Source of the DNA: Salinicoccus halitifaciens | Lineage (GTDB): Bacteria > Bacillota > Bacilli > Staphylococcales > Salinicoccaceae | Direction of reading: 5' to 3' | DNA length: 64,000 nucleotides | Assembly: GCF_021026095.1 (NCBI RefSeq) | Contig: NZ_JAJNCU010000001.1 | Coordinates: forward strand, 682,001-746,000 | Shown here: positions 12,231-46,264 of the stretch, piece by piece | Numbering within the stretch: position 1 is the stretch's first letter | Layout of the letters: each line of letters begins with the position of its first letter | Notes under the pieces: model-generated | Databases searched by the model: none | What the model saw: the letters and a program-made list of their open reading frames with translations, nothing else | Told to the model about the DNA's origin: nothing | Program-made: the position numbers and the translations under genes

Positions 12231-12902
12231 ATGAACTATGATGAATATAACACCATCGGCAGTGATGAAGCGGGCGTCGGCGATTATTTCGGACCGATGA
12301 CCGTTTGCGCTGCATACGTGCCAAAAGACAAGATTGCCCTGCTGAAGGAACTCGGCGTGAAAGACTCGAAGAACCTCTCCAACAATACGGTGATTAAAAT
12401 CGCCGGCGACCTGATCCATACGGTCACCTATTCGCTTGTTGTACTGGACAATCCATCCTACAACAAAAAGATAGATGAAGGATGGAACATCGTGAAGCTG
12501 AAGGCGGTGCTCCATGACCACTGCATCAGGAACGTCCATGACAAGCTGGATGAAGATGAACGCGGCAACATCGAGAAGATCGTCATCGACCAGTTCACGA
12601 CACTGAATGCCTACAACAAATATGTGCCGGATCCGTTCATGATAGAGAAAATCCACCAGGAGACGAAAGCCGAAAGCAAATCCCTCGCCGTCGCCGCAGC
12701 AAGCATCATTGCACGGGCAAAGTACCTAGAACAGATGGCGAACCTCGATAAGACACTGAAAGATAAAGTGCCACGGGGTGCAAGCAAGCAGGTCGACGCC
12801 TTCGCTGCACGGCTTGCCAAAAAGCATGGGATGGATTACGTCGACAGCCTCACGAAGAAGCACTTCAAGACACGCGAGAAGGTGCAGGCGCTGCTGAAAT
12901 AG
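12231..12902 (+). CDS. rnhC: RNase HIII lacking the N-terminal TBP-like domain
   Basis: 223-residue ribonuclease cleaving RNA in RNA-DNA hybrids. The catalytic DEDE core begins almost at the start: SDEAGVGDYFGP (first Asp-Glu at residues 11-13), VIDQF and SLAVAAASIIARAKYLE. Bacillus and Staphylococcus RNase HIII is about 310 residues with an N-terminal substrate-binding (DUF3378, TBP-like) domain of some 80-90 residues; that part is absent. An in-frame TGA lies two codons upstream of the ATG and the upstream DNA is the divergent promoter, so this is not a mis-called start. Could be read as an RNase HII/HIII core enzyme. Position beside zapA and pheT is that of rnhC. Confidence 0.88.
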   Translation: MNYDEYNTIGSDEAGVGDYFGPMTVCAAYVPKDKIALLKELGVKDSKNLSNNTVIKIAGDLIHTVTYSLVVLDNPSYNKKIDEGWNIVKLKAVLHDHCIRNVHDKLDEDERGNIEKIVIDQFTTLNAYNKYVPDPFMIEKIHQETKAESKSLAVAAASIIARAKYLEQMANLDKTLKDKVPRGASKQVDAFAARLAKKHGMDYVDSLTKKHFKTREKVQALLK

Positions 12903-12930: not shown

Positions 12931-13118
12931 TTCGATTAAGTCGGTGTAAACTTCAAGGATAATCGAATAAACGCCGATAAATCGATTAAGTCCTGAATAT
13001 CTCAAAAGATAATCGAAATTGAGCGGCATATTCGATTAAGTGTGCCGGGAACCAGTAAGATAATCGAAAACAGCCCTGAAAATCGATTAAATCCGTAAAA
13101 AACGCAAAGATAATCGGG
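12931..13118. repeat. Four-unit alternating inverted-repeat array (locus 1)
   Basis: Four 37-38 base units starting at 12931, 12981, 13031 and 13082 (period 50, 50, 51). Each unit begins WTCGATTAAGT or a close variant and ends AAGATAATCGAA (the last AAGATAATCGGG), with unrelated sequence in the middle and 12-14 bases between units. The 7-mer TCGATTA and its complement TAATCGA therefore alternate with start-to-start spacings of 28-29 and about 22. No open frame follows the period. It lies between the 3' ends of convergent rnhC and pheT. The same design occurs in the opposite orientation at 45592-45779. Not a family I recognise. Confidence 0.9.
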
Positions 13119-13140
13119 ACCATCAAAAAATTCACAAACA

Positions 13141-13178
13141 AAAAGCTGCAGGAGACATTCAAATCTCCTGCAGCTTTT
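13141..13178. terminator. Bidirectional terminator between rnhC and pheT
   Basis: Perfect 15-base arms AAAAGCTGCAGGAGA / TCTCCTGCAGCTTTT around an 8-base loop, with T-rich sequence on both strands. It ends 3 bases before the pheT stop codon. Confidence 0.93.
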
Positions 13179-13181
13179 TTA

Positions 13182-15584
13182 TTATCCTCTCAATACGAAT
13201 CCTTTATCTTTCAGCGCTTCGAGCACCGGCTGATGGATTTCCTCAACCGCTTCATCGGTCAGCGTCTCTTCCTTGTTCAGGTAAGTGAGGCGGATCGCGA
13301 CGGATTTCTTATCCGATTCTATGTTCTCTCCTTCATAGACGTCGAACACATAGACATCGATCAGATATTTCTCAGCAGCATTCTCGATGATATCGACGAG
13401 TGTGCCCGCAGTAACATCCCTGTCCGCGACAAGTGCGATGTCCCTTGTGACCGACGGGTACTTCGGCAGCACTTCGTATTCAATGGTGCCGGACTTCACG
13501 GCAAGCAGTGCGTCGAGATCCACTTCGAATACGATCGTCTGATCCAGATCATGGTCCCTTTCATATTTCGGATGCAGCTCGCCGACGAATCCGATATATT
13601 TTCCGCCGAGCGTGATATCCGCCGTACGTCCAGGATGCATCTCCGCATATCCTTCCGACGGCACATAATGGATATCATCAGTCAGCCCGAGTTTTTCGAA
13701 CACGCTGTCGAGTATGCCTTTTGCCGCATAGAAATCGGCGGGCACATGGCTGCCAAGCCAATCCGTATTGTTCATCCTGCCTGTCAGGATGCCCGCAAGC
13801 TTCTCGACTTCCTCAGGCTGTACATCCTGCCCTTTGGAAATAAAGATCCTGCCCACTTCGAACAGCTGGACGTCTTTTTGCTGGCGGCTGGTGTTGTACA
13901 CCACATTGTCCACAAGGTGAGGCACCAGACTGTTTCTGAGCACCGCACGATCCTCACTCATCGGCATCATCAGGCGCAATGCTTCCTTGCGGTCCGTGAA
14001 CTGTGAAGCCTTCTCCTCGCTCGTCAGCGCATAGTTGATGGACTGCGACAGACCGAGGGATTCGAGCTGATGGCGTATGATGCGGTGCTTCTCCTGTGCA
14101 TCCGTCAGCCTGCCCGGTGTGATCGTCTCAAATTTCGGGAGTGAGGACGGCAGTGCATCATAGCCGTATATTCTTGCCACTTCCTCAGTGATGTCTTCCG
14201 GGATCTGGAGGTCGTCCCGGCGTGACGGTACATGGATTTCAAGATCGTCACCGCTCACGATGGTCTCCAGGCCGAGTTTTGACAATGTCTCTTCGATTTC
14301 AGACGTCTCAAGGTGCATGCCGAGCCTGTTGTTGATGAAGTCCCTTGACGTTTTGATGATTGAATCACTTGTATCGAGTGCCCCGTCGGAATTATATCCA
14401 ATCTGCACTTTGCCCCCTGCATATTTTTCAAGCAGGTATGCCGCACGTTCCAATGCCGGGAGGACGAATTCATGGGAGACGCCCTTTTCAAAACGGCTGC
14501 TCGCTTCACTCCGCAGATCCAGCCTGCCGCTCGTCTTCCGGATGGAGACCGGATTGAACACTGCCGACTCGATGATGACGTTCGTCGTCTCGTCCGTCAC
14601 TTCGGAGAAATCGCCGCCCATAACACCTGCAAGCGCGACCGGCTCTTTGCCGTTGGTGATGACGATGTCGCTGCCCTTGAGCGTGCGCTCTTTACCATCG
14701 AGCGTCGTCATCTTCTCGCCCTCTTCAGCAAACCGCGTCACGATCTCCTTCGAACCGAGCTGGTCATAATCGAACATATGAAGCGGCTGGCCGTATTCAA
14801 GCATCACATAGTTCGAAATGTCGACGACGTTGTTGATCGGACGGATACCCGCTTTGATCAGGCGGATCTGCATCCATGTCGGTGCAGGTTTTATTTCCAC
14901 GTCTTTCACGACCCGGAGGGCGTAGTAAGGGACCGCTTCACTGTCCTCATTGCGTACGGTGACGTCCACTGCCTCTCCTGTCTCGGTGAGGTCCGTTGAA
15001 GGATGCGTCACTTCCCCGCCATACAGCGCCTTCGTCTCGTAGGCCGCCCCGATGATTGATAGTGCATCCTTCCGGTTCGGTGTGAGGTCGAACTCCATCA
15101 CCGCATCATCGAGATAGACTGCAGGCAGTGCCGGTGCACCGGCTTCCTGATCCTCACTGAAAATGAAGATGCCATCCTGATATTCCTTCGGCACATAATC
15201 GGTTGGTATGCCGATCTCATCAAGTGAGCATATCATCCCTTCCGAGACTTCCCCGCGCAGCTTCGCCTTTTTGATCTTGATGCCGCCCGGCAGCCTTCCG
15301 CCGACCTGGCAGACGATCACGTACGTATCGGCTGCAACGTTATCTGCACCGCAGACGATCTGCTTCACTTCATCCCCGGTATTCACCCGGCACAGGTTCA
15401 GCTTATCCGCATCCGGATGCTGCTTCACTTCCTCGACATGGCCGATGACGAGGTTTTTGATGTCCGACGTATAGTCGATGATGTCATCCACCTCGATGCC
15501 GCCGCGCGTGATGCGTTCCGATAATTCATATACGTCCGCTTCCACATCTATATACTCGCTTAACCACTCTTTAGATACTTTCAA
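13182..15584 (-). CDS. pheT: Phenylalanyl-tRNA synthetase beta subunit
   Basis: 800-residue non-catalytic subunit of the alpha2-beta2 enzyme, carrying tRNA binding and editing. Seen in order: N-terminal EMAP/tRNA-binding domain ([15 protein letters not shown]), B3/B4 editing domain, B5 domain, and the C-terminal anticodon-binding domain ([17 protein letters not shown]). The frame is open to GTG at 15591-15593, but that GTG overlaps the GGAGG ribosome site. TTG at 15582-15584, 8 bases after GGAGG, is the likely start and gives the family N-terminus [12 protein letters not shown]. It overlaps the end of pheS by 14 bases, so translation is coupled. Confidence 0.95.
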
Positions 15585-16638
15585 CGTTTTCACCTCCGTC
15601 TTCCGTCTGTTTGAATTGATTGATGAACCTTAAATCGTTTGTATACAGGTGGCGTATATCCTCGATGCCGTAGCGCAGCATCGCCACCCTGTCAGGACCC
15701 ATGCCGAATGCAAAACCGCTGTATTCATCCGGGTCATACCCTGCCATCCTGAGGACATTCGGGTGCACCATGCCCGCACCGAGTATTTCTATCCAGCCGG
15801 ACTGCTTGCATACGTTGCATCCCGCACCTTTGCATTTGAAGCAGGAGATGTCGACTTCCACACTCGGTTCGGTGAACGGGAAGAAACTCGGGCGCAGTCG
15901 GATTTCACGCTCCGTGCCGAAGATCTCCTTGGCAAACAGCTCGAGCGTGCCTTTCAGGTCGCTCATATGGATATTCTTATCGACGACCAGTCCCTCGATC
16001 TGTGTGAACTGGTGGCTGTGTGTCGCGTCATCACTGTCACGGCGGTACACCTTGCCCGGACAGATGATCTTCACCGCTTCTTTGCCTTTACGGTCTTCAA
16101 GCACACGGGCCTGCACCGGTGAGGTGTGCGTCCTGAGCAGGAGCTCCTCCGATATGTAGAATGTATCCTGCATATCACGCGCCGGGTGGGATTTCGGCAG
16201 ATTCAGCGCCTCAAAGTTGTAGTAGTCCGTCTCCACTTCATAGCCTTCCTGTATCTCATAGCCGAGGCCGATGAAGAAGTCTTCGATGTCCTCGATGATC
16301 CGAGAGATCGGATGCTGGGAGCCGATGTTGAACTTTCTGCCCGGCAGGGTCACATCGATCGTTTCATTCTTCAATCTCTCTTCAAGTGCCGCCGCCTCGA
16401 TTTCCGCACTCTTCTCCTCGATCGATGCCTCTATGTTCCGGCGCAGTTCATTGACCTTCTGGCCATAGGCCGGACGTTCCTCATTCGAAAGATTCTTCAT
16501 CTCCTTCATCAGGCCGGTCACTCTGCCTTTTTTACCAAGATACTGGACTTTGAGGTCCTGGAGGCTTCTTGCATCTTCAACTGTCTCAAGCGACACGTCG
16601 AATTCATCCTGAATATGTGTCATTTGTGATGTATCCAT
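15571..16638 (-). CDS. pheS: Phenylalanyl-tRNA synthetase alpha subunit
   Basis: 355-residue catalytic class II synthetase subunit. The N-terminal coiled coil (about residues 1-90) binds tRNA. Class II motif 2 is seen at [11 protein letters not shown] and motif 3 at [18 protein letters not shown] CxxC-CxxC zinc-like cluster ([12 protein letters not shown]) is typical of this subunit in Gram-positives. ATG at 16636-16638 with AAGGAG 7 bases upstream. Expression is governed by the upstream T-box leader. Confidence 0.97.
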
Positions 16639-36313: not shown

Positions 36314-36829
36314 ATGAAAGCATTGGACATGGCTGCTTTGGCACTTGTGATCATAGGCGGCTTGAACTGGCTTCTGGTGGGATTGTTTGAATTCGACCTT
36401 GTAGCCTCCATCTTTGGAAGTCAGGAGAACATCGGTGCCAAAATAGTCTACATCCTGGTCGGTCTCGCAGCTCTGTACTCCTTAAAGTTCTTTGGTCATA
36501 TCAACGATCATCATGAACGCGCTGAGGACACCAACAGAGTGACGGGGACAGGTACGACGCGCACAGACGCTGACAGAACAACCGGGACGACAGGTGCTGA
36601 TGCCAGGACTGCCGGTATATCCAACGAATCCAAGGAAGTCGGCCCTACAGCGGGTTCCACTAAAAACAAGCCTATGGATGCCGACACACGCACAGGCACT
36701 GATACAAGGACCACTGGTATGTCCGAGGAAGTCGACCCTACAACAGGCTCCACAAAAAACAAACCTGTAGATGTTGATACGCGCACAGGCGCTGATACAA
36801 GGGATCTTGATGATACGGACAGAAGATAA
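36314..36829 (+). CDS. DUF378 membrane protein with repetitive hydrophilic tail
   Basis: 171 residues. The N-terminal 62 residues are a DUF378 domain with two membrane helices (LALVIIGGLNWLLVGLFEFD and KIVYILVGLAALYSLKFF). The rest is a Thr/Asp/Gly/Arg-rich, disordered tail with an internal duplication: the block P-T-x-G-S-T-K-N-K-P-(M/V)-D-x-D-T-R-T-G-x-D-T-R occurs twice, about 35 residues apart, and shorter T-G-T-T pieces precede it. DUF378 function is unknown. RBS AAGGAGGAG. The sigma-B promoter suggests a general-stress membrane protein. Confidence 0.82.
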   Translation: MKALDMAALALVIIGGLNWLLVGLFEFDLVASIFGSQENIGAKIVYILVGLAALYSLKFFGHINDHHERAEDTNRVTGTGTTRTDADRTTGTTGADARTAGISNESKEVGPTAGSTKNKPMDADTRTGTDTRTTGMSEEVDPTTGSTKNKPVDVDTRTGADTRDLDDTDRR

Positions 36830-45591: not shown

Positions 45592-45779
45592 GTCGATTAT
45601 CTTCACCAATTTTTCTCACTTAATCGATTTTAGGGATGATATTCGATTATCTTCTTGGAATTCATCCAACTTAATCGATTTCAGGGGCCAAAGTCGATTA
45701 ACTTCATAGATTTCATCAACTTAATCGAATATTGAGGTGATATTCGATTATCTTCATGAATTGGCCTGACTTAATCGAA
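45592..45779. repeat. Four-unit alternating inverted-repeat array (locus 2)
   Basis: Four units whose TCGATTA cores start at 45593, 45643, 45694 and 45744 (period 50, 51, 50) and end with TAATCGA 35-36 bases later. Read on the minus strand they are WTCGATTAAGT, 14-15 variable bases, GAAGATAATCGAV (one unit GAAGTTAATCGAC), the same design and spacing as 12931-13118 but in the opposite orientation. The array lies between the MetE-type gene promoter and rplT. It makes no open frame. The 13-16 bases between units also show partial similarity (TATCAYC). Confidence 0.9.
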
Positions 45780-45853
45780 GTGCCATATAATTAACACTTC
45801 GGCTGTGCCCCGGCAGAATCCAAATCGGCCGCCCCCAAAAAATCCATAAGAAA

Positions 45854-45881
45854 AACCCCGCTGCATCTGTTCAGCGGGGTT
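45854..45881 (-). terminator. Terminator of infC-rpmI-rplT
   Basis: AACCCCGCTG / CAGCGGGGTT, 10 perfect pairs, 8-base loop, followed on the minus strand by TTTCTT. Confidence 0.92.
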
Positions 45882-45904
45882 CCAATACCTATATATTATA
45901 TTAA

Positions 45905-46264
45905 TTATTTAGCAAGAGCGTCTTTTGCTTTGTTTGCAAGTTCAGCAAATGCCGCTTCGTCAGAAATCGCGATTTCTGAAAGCATTTTTCTGTTCACATC
46001 GATGCCGGCAACTTTCAGTCCGTTCATCAGACGGCTGTAGCTGATGTCGTTTTGACGTGCTGCTGCATTGATACGTGTGATCCAGAGCTTTCTAAATTCA
46101 CGCTTTTTATTTTTACGGTCACGGTATGCATACTGACCTGATTTGATTACCTGTTGTTTTGCTGTTCTGAAGAGAGTACTCTTGGAACCGACGTACCCTT
46201 TAGCCTGTTTTAATACTTTTTTACGTCTCTTACGTGACGTCAATCCGTTCTTTACACGTGTCAT
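45905..46264 (-). CDS. rplT: Ribosomal protein L20
   Basis: 119-residue 50S protein that binds 23S rRNA early in assembly. Typical basic N-terminus ([23 protein letters not shown]) and globular C-terminal domain ([21 protein letters not shown]). In Firmicutes L20 also represses its own operon by binding the infC leader. Last gene of infC-rpmI-rplT; ATG with GGAGG upstream. Confidence 0.98.

Follow-up and report, generated by a model that had tools for sequence, protein, structure and literature searches.

The BIMEs of enterobacteria are made of alternating inverted units that lie behind genes and bind gyrase, IHF or Pol I, and CRISPR arrays of near-identical repeats separated by unique spacers of fixed length. 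REPIN-RAYT systems combine paired REP palindromes with a Y1 HUH transposase, a different REPIN cluster lying beside each RAYT; tandem clusters occur, and enzyme and repeat are thought to have co-evolved (PMC3116915). The GTAG and CGTC superfamilies of REPs are palindromic extragenic repeats of 20-40 bp, tagged at one end with GTAG or CGTC, in a paper whose main text has neither “Firmicutes” nor “Staphylococc” (PMC3733652). The STAR elements of staphylococci are intergenic, recur every ~50-58 bases, expand and contract, and are described as being of unknown function; their motif is T(G/A/T)TGTTG(G/T)GGCCC(C/A), their spacers are common within a locus and distinct between loci, and the loci themselves differ between species (PMC3532100).

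Here we describe the repeat arrays in a stretch of 64,000 nucleotides from Salinicoccus halitifaciens, called the window below, together with a family of genes with which such arrays are associated. The features of the window are as follows.

12231-12902, forward strand: rnhC (Pfam Ribonuclease HII, PF01351), followed after 29 bases by array 1
12932-13117, forward strand: array 1, four inverted-arm units of 35-36 bp with 15-base spacers
12932-12966, 12982-13016, 13032-13067 and 13083-13117, forward strand: the units of array 1
13140-13180, no strand assigned: inverted repeat resembling a terminator, between array 1 and pheT, found by eye and unlisted by the scan tool
13182-15593, reverse strand: a gene that we take to be pheT, convergent with rnhC
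45593-45778, reverse strand: array 2, four units, the sister of array 1, beyond the rplT terminator-like hairpin
45593-45627, 45643-45678, 45694-45728 and 45744-45778, reverse strand: the units of array 2
45851-45882, reverse strand: terminator-like hairpin between rplT and array 2, found by eye and unlisted by the scan tool
45905-46264, reverse strand: presumably rplT, its 3' end facing array 2 (coordinates converted from locus L015)

The alternating TCGATTA and TAATCGA 7-mers that the first-pass annotation reported downstream of rnhC are real: a detector of alternating 7-mers reports two arrays for the window, compared with none across 20 shuffles, and the two-arm pattern matches 5 times against 0 in 100 shuffles (with 6-mers the alternating detector adds one AT-rich stretch, at 0.05 per shuffle). 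The four-unit array is, however, not alone, array 2 (45593-45778, reverse strand) having been overlooked, and each unit start given by the annotation (12931, 12981, 13031 and 13082) lies one base before the true one. Left arms TCGATTA begin at 12932, 12982, 13032 and 13083 and right arms at 12960, 13010, 13061 and 13111; seven of the eight alternating arms are exact as claimed, and the eighth, the last right arm, reads TAATCGG. Unit lengths are 35, 35, 36 and 35 with every spacer at 15, and the period, said to be exactly 50 bases, is 50 for two steps and 51 for the third. The flanks, likewise called conserved, are so in part: the left flank is TCGATTAAGT in three of four units (TCGATTAAAT in unit 4), and at the other end AAGATAATCGA is exact in just two of four, with AAGGATAATCGA in unit 1 and AAGATAATCGG in unit 4. 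Elsewhere in the window, Tandem Repeats Finder reports a 93-bp unit repeated 1.9 times with 82% matches (36629-36802).

The design recurs in the rest of the genome and in relatives. A genome-wide count of arrays, their spacing and their orientation, which the annotation had suggested, gives 27 units in eight intergenic arrays, in both orientations, for S. halitifaciens (G000; 28 rows, one place being counted on both strands), 30 units in seven arrays for Lacicoccus alkaliphilus DSM 16010 (G002) and 18 units in five arrays for Salinicoccus kekensis DSM 23173 (G005); the covariance model, R1, served for counting alone, and of the six genus members it finds 0 units in G001, G003 and G004 (the last 80% complete). 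Exact arm pairs number 26 in G000 against 0 for a reversed control, and among 120 genomes including its own the counts are 26, 26 and 16 in G000, G002 and G005 and 0-3 in the remainder, with controls at 0-4. A stricter pattern, scanned over a species-genome collection that may exclude the window's own genome, matches the two sister species and gives four single matches (two Jeotgalibacillus, an Opitutia MAG and a Cytobacillus), which were set aside, roughly four being expected by a rough estimate. The two in Jeotgalibacillus are one same-arm unit each (L026:3605-3639 and L029:5817-5851), lying inside a terminator-like hairpin in at least one.

In all three array-bearing species, a TCGATTA array adjoins a gene with a NERD domain. 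The key partner of array 1, a NERD gene followed by an array of its own, is a long way from the coordinates that the annotation gave: NERD-A is found at 213.9-214.8 kb of contig C1 in G000, the contig that also carries array 1, at a distance of ~480 kb. The gene before the array at L009 encodes a NERD-domain protein with a PF08378 score of 43.1 bits (cut-off 22.1). We favor, with moderate confidence, the reading that array 1 is a dispersed relative of the array behind NERD-A, the NERD protein binding its own phased array and, by its action, allowing copies to grow and spread.

Of the described systems, REPIN-RAYT is the nearest analogue in logic. As there, short inverted-arm units, those of the TCGATTA family, are dispersed in intergenic DNA and an array cluster sits beside an enzyme gene, here NERD replacing RAYT. 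The enzyme, however, is a NERD-domain protein unrelated to HUH, the NERD-linked arrays are regular tandems as a rule, with periods near whole helical turns, and the TCGATTA units have no GTAG or CGTC tail. A Y1 transposase as driver was rejected because Y1_Tnp (PF01797) is found in 0 of the 3 array-bearing genomes; the other three genus members yield one partial match, in G004, a genome without a TCGATTA array. The GTAG/CGTC REPs are similar to the TCGATTA units in being palindromic, extragenic and within 20-40 bp. BIMEs also alternate inverted units behind genes, but their sequence and period are unrelated. Regular repeats with fixed-length spacers recall CRISPR, but in the TCGATTA arrays the 15-base spacers are largely alike within an array (L071, L072, L077) and it is the loops that vary, so that identity with CRISPR does not hold. 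STAR is matched in behavior, not in motif: the STAR core TGTTGNGGCCC has 0 matches within the window, on which ground identity was rejected, and, unlike STAR, five TCGATTA arrays stand at loci common to three species and the system has a candidate enzyme partner, none being described for STAR in PMC3532100. A scan of seven array loci against Rfam gives nothing above the curated threshold except FMN and SAM riboswitches, and no Rfam family can be assigned. The annotation knew of no named family with this design, and none matched among Rfam, STAR, CRISPR and the Y1-REPIN systems. Searches of open PubMed Central papers turned up no account of such arrays or of repeats linked to NERD, and no study of the role of NERD in bacteria preceded that of SmdA, according to PMC9040797. 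The SAM and FMN riboswitches (L012:7070-7169 and L013:3773-3905) lie near two of the arrays.

Between orthologous arrays (six pairs), 239 of 244 arm positions are identical (98%), compared with 287 of 371 in the loops (77%) and 123 of 165 in the spacers (75%), which places the TCGATTA arms under strong constraint; the flanks are identical at 856 of 1021 positions. The alignment suggested by the annotation therefore confirms its conserved ends. Its free middles fare less well, as each of the 40 distinct 21-base loops compared has A (36 loops) or T (4 loops) at the dyad center, and its exclusion of recent duplication is contradicted by L071 and L077, where identical or near-identical units show that tandem duplication does act. 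The array loci common to three species lie behind NERD-A, rnhC and the genes that we take to be purA, nrdF and metQ (as we also take the names rplT and, below, ispE), and the rplT locus is common to two species; between species, a shared locus holds from 1 to 8 copies. Crude ORF calls at 18 loci with clear neighbors give 7 convergent, 11 co-directional and 0 divergent arrangements (L181, L183 and L188/L189, which are unclear, are omitted, and L193 disagrees with its counterpart L179).

This constraint, the shared loci, the placement behind genes and the periods near helical turns are also what one would expect of phased platforms useful to the host, comparable to the BIMEs that bind gyrase, with NERD acting as a chromosome or transcription-end factor, selection keeping the sites behind genes and no amplification by the protein. 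Our reading has its chief competitor in such a host role with no spreading, which we hold unlikely rather than negligible, since arms and array families at one site vary between close species, three congeners (one of them 80% complete) are without the TCGATTA family, and a single genome can contain several NERD families whose arms differ. The variation is seen directly at orthologous sites, where congeners have arrays of the same build with different arms: G005 has a TCCGAT...ATCGGA array before ispE and a CCGATTTG array at rplT, the rplT site of G001 has TTCGATTTGA, and the rnhC site in both G001 and G003 has TGACACGAA. Other sites of the congeners, the purA and metQ sites of G001 and G003 among them, have no array. 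At the rplT site (L015, L087), a remnant of a CCGATTTG-type array, CCGATTTGGATTCTG, stands in G000 beside the TCGATTA array, and the fuller form is in G005.

The association with NERD extends well beyond one arm family. Loci were chosen for the presence of a NERD gene in sets of 20, then 30 (PF08378, 45 relatives, one per genome), then 20, giving 69 distinct loci after L240 was dropped as a duplicate of L219; eight loci reached via their arrays (L009, L066, L074, L101, L102, L188, L189 and L194) are omitted from the 69. The exact-arm detector finds arrays at 21 of the 69 against 3 of 239 random 3.2-kb windows, a set from which the NERD-side window of L194 was excluded, and in genera g1 and g6 alone at 17 of 48 against 3 of 119; with the eight array-reached loci the count is 27 of 77. 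Detection by exact 6-mers misses many arrays, as at L217, L218, L222 and L223, which are unmatched by it and were later found periodic. A period test of the 420 bases after the NERD stop codon, accepting any lag from 30 to 75 (46 lags), was usable at 60 of the 69 loci, the other 9 being without a usable 3' flank or ORF. In this test 49 of 60 NERD 3' flanks prove periodic, compared with 9 of 300 control 3' flanks (p = 3e-40), gap lengths being unmatched between the two sets and the control flanks being screened at z 4.5 with 30 shuffles, the NERD flanks with 60. The lags of the 49 are 41 (23 flanks), 42 (3), 50 (1), 51 (15), 52 (5) and 62 (2). Six of the nine control positives have lags of 41 or 51 and the other three 48, 31 and 33; four of the six belong to L194, namely a NERD flank, the gene facing that array and two at a CAACGG array. 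Eleven of the 60 NERD flanks fail, among them L278, which is a run of N, and L219 and L239, whose arrays are 5'; arrays lie on the 5' side of the NERD gene at L219, L239, L272 and L282.

One might ask whether these are passive tandem repeats lingering in long gaps, their link to NERD being incidental. Copy number does vary between species, plain duplication is seen in L071 and L077, and the control flanks are unmatched in gap length, but such repeats would hardly fall into three period classes only, behind NERD genes so much more often than behind others and with arms far more conserved than loops. We disfavor this account and give it scarcely any credence. Genes for a NERD subfamily with a nuclease-like domain, a zinc ribbon and a C-terminal segment usually have their own tandem array on the 3' side. 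In a class-wide sample beyond the order, from which 3 of 29 loci were dropped for want of a flank, only 4 of 26 testable NERD 3' flanks are periodic. Three of the four proteins with zinc-ribbon spacing, a small number, are among them (lags 40, 52 and 42), against one of 22 without it; two more flanks, one of a protein with the zinc-ribbon spacing, are close but below threshold. This suggests that the association is a property of proteins built from NERD, zinc ribbon and C-terminal segment, not of NERD at large.

The repeat length goes with the clade of the NERD protein. In a tree of 50 NERD proteins, one clade has arrays of 41-42 bp and another arrays of 50-52 bp, and two g10 proteins (periods 62 and 51) fall outside both. 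With a score margin of 60 bits, 26 of 26 rows of clade I are at 41/42 (setting aside two g10 rows at 62 and the run of N at L278) and 16 of 16 rows of clade II at 51/52, most of the scored proteins having helped to build the clade profiles; five rows outside the assignment have periods of 50, 51, 51, 52 and 52. In a fresh set scored from the protein alone, in which clade II loci are absent, fourteen g6 loci have strong clade I scores (365-425 bits) and all 13 readable ones are at 41/42. A simple rule assigned all 19 loci of this set to clade I, including five with low scores, of which L279, L280, L282 and L283 have periods of 50, 62, 52 and 51 and the fifth has no array. As the rows are related by descent, they reflect few independent changes and their counts overstate independence. 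At 10.2-10.3 bp per turn, the period classes correspond to about 4, 5 and 6 turns of the helix. At least eight matched arm bases, taken as clear inverted arms, are present in the consensus of 23 of the 49 periodic flanks: 11 of the 16 clade II flanks, 8 of the 26 clade I flanks and 4 of the 7 others (run of N left out). The common feature is the period, the inverted arms being characteristic of the 51-bp class.

The annotation had left a choice between protein-binding sites and small hairpins, and protein sites fit better. RNA hairpins in 3' untranslated regions, stabilizing or ending transcripts, would agree with the position of the examined arrays near a 3' end and with the folding of single units at -3.6 to -12.6 kcal/mol (both strands counted), but the inner pairing is weak and inconsistent, array 2 and the arrays behind nrdF and purA lie, by reading, past terminator-like hairpins already, and the canonical strand is sense at 6 of 9 loci and antisense at 3 of 9. 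Furthermore, the arm changes within the family, for which compensation had been suggested as a test, are one-sided in the units inspected and not compensatory, the periods follow the turns of DNA, and 18 of 26 clade I arrays are without clear inverted arms. Hairpins as the working form are accordingly very unlikely in our estimate. The near-whole-turn periods, the use of either orientation, the position of some arrays beyond terminator-like hairpins and the one-sided changes all suggest sites for a DNA-binding protein.

Arms from an array beside a NERD gene turn up again at further intergenic sites of that genome, and several orthologous NERD genes share arms. TCGATTA arms of the NERD-A array are found at seven further loci of G000, and CGATTTG arms likewise both beside a NERD gene and at other sites of its genome; GTGATAA arms recur in G014, where one long array lies near 870 kb, and ATAGAC arms at rplT in G021. 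CAACGG arms occur in G014 at ~203 and ~1000 kb, the NERD locus itself being near 905 kb, and CTATGA arms of the same genome just ~5 kb from the corresponding NERD array. The CAACGG arrays of G014 have a 41-bp period and are dispersed at L194:3323-3452 and L196:613-1111, and a further one, at L272:464-921, lies 5' of a NERD gene. Mobile carriage was rejected, as plasmids give no match for three NERD proteins, phages none for two, and viral contigs none for the TCGATTA pattern.

In type III toxin-antitoxin pairs, repeat RNAs restrain a toxin, and by analogy an array, as RNA or as DNA decoy, might restrain its own nuclease. Most of these nuclease-like genes do have their own repeat, and the NERD domain is weakly similar to defense proteins (PADLOC, NCBIfam). 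The arrays, however, lie mostly behind the gene rather than before it, many copies are far from any NERD gene, and the plasmid and phage queries found nothing, so we regard such a pairing as quite improbable and return to a protein that binds and spreads its array.

An alignment of 22 NERD proteins, all of which match PF08378 at E 0.1 or better, has GE, QxD and ExK motifs and four cysteines conserved: G37, E38, Q82, D84, K99, Q126, C224 and C244 are among the invariant positions, and E97, C227 and C241 are nearly invariant. We take these to be a PD-(D/E)xK-like site and a zinc ribbon. Pfam helix-turn-helix matches are weak (E 0.024 and 0.078, in one member each of 22), a single-sequence structure prediction has a pLDDT of 33.7, too low to be of use, and a PDB profile search at E 1 gives mostly weak zinc-ribbon or zinc-finger matches, the best at 0.0015. 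NERD-A is nuclease-like and probably DNA-binding, and its C-terminal end is, by sequence pattern, a possible helix-turn-helix. The C-terminal sequence appears to go with the arms in eleven of 26 proteins, in a comparison made by eye and post hoc, with no statistic attached. The ending ...ISEFYVRS... accompanies TCGATTA arrays (G000.A, G002.A, G005.A), ...EISEYC[VI]R... accompanies TCGATTTG arrays (G001.A, G002.B, G005.B), ...Q[IV]SDF[YF]IRK... accompanies GATATGCTCG right arms (G003.A and the split G000.B), and ...SSAT[VI]RRYR.KNLI[DE]Y accompanies CTGCTCAC or the near forms CTGCTCA/CTGCTTA (G001.4, G003.4, G005.D); G000.D, with a different C-terminus, has CTAAAC arms.

A mechanism would then run as follows. 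The C-terminal segment, a putative helix-turn-helix, would read the arm; units placed whole helical turns apart would bring neighboring sites to the same side of the double helix, allowing the protein to load the array side by side, and the intact-looking PD-(D/E)xK-like site could nick or cut there. More speculatively, repair of the cut might make the array longer or shorter by increments that the protein dictates, pieces of the array might occasionally be seeded at permissive places, mostly behind genes, and protein and arrays might persist together as REPINs do with RAYTs. A wider proposal, which we advance tentatively and hold to be rather less likely than its opposite, is that proteins with NERD, zinc ribbon and helix-turn-helix are DNA-measuring nucleases found well beyond the order in Bacilli, which would write and maintain their own arrays behind their genes at about 4, 5 or 6 turns and seed copies through the genome without a transposase, the C-terminal reader setting the arm and the body the ruler. 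If true, NERD proteins would have a definite DNA target and a function open to experiment, there would be a second, unrelated solution to the task of REPIN-RAYT, and an explanation would be at hand for a class of intergenic tandem repeats in which the geometry of the helix, not the sequence, fixes the repeat length. The proposal predicts repeat length from protein clade and arm sequence from C-terminal sequence.

Other arm families have their own distributions. Genus g6 has GGTGATAAG arrays with a period of 51, found with a looser pattern whose background in other genomes is 0-13 pairs, both strands together. A 66-67-bp tandem repeat with inverted CAAATG arms in genus g8 of the same order (G036, L206:19754-19972) was set aside as unrelated. 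Pairs of the form CGATTTG-N12-26-CAAATCG number 8, 17, 11, 4, 1 and 9 in G000 to G005, and at most 1 in each of 27 further genomes; some lie at contig ends (C7 and C12 of G002, C5 of G000), and draft assemblies may therefore undercount arrays. In G000, the NERD-B gene (L214:914-1890) is split into two overlapping ORFs, with CGAGCA arms in its array; it counts against our reading that the genome retains its 8 CGATTTG pairs despite the split.
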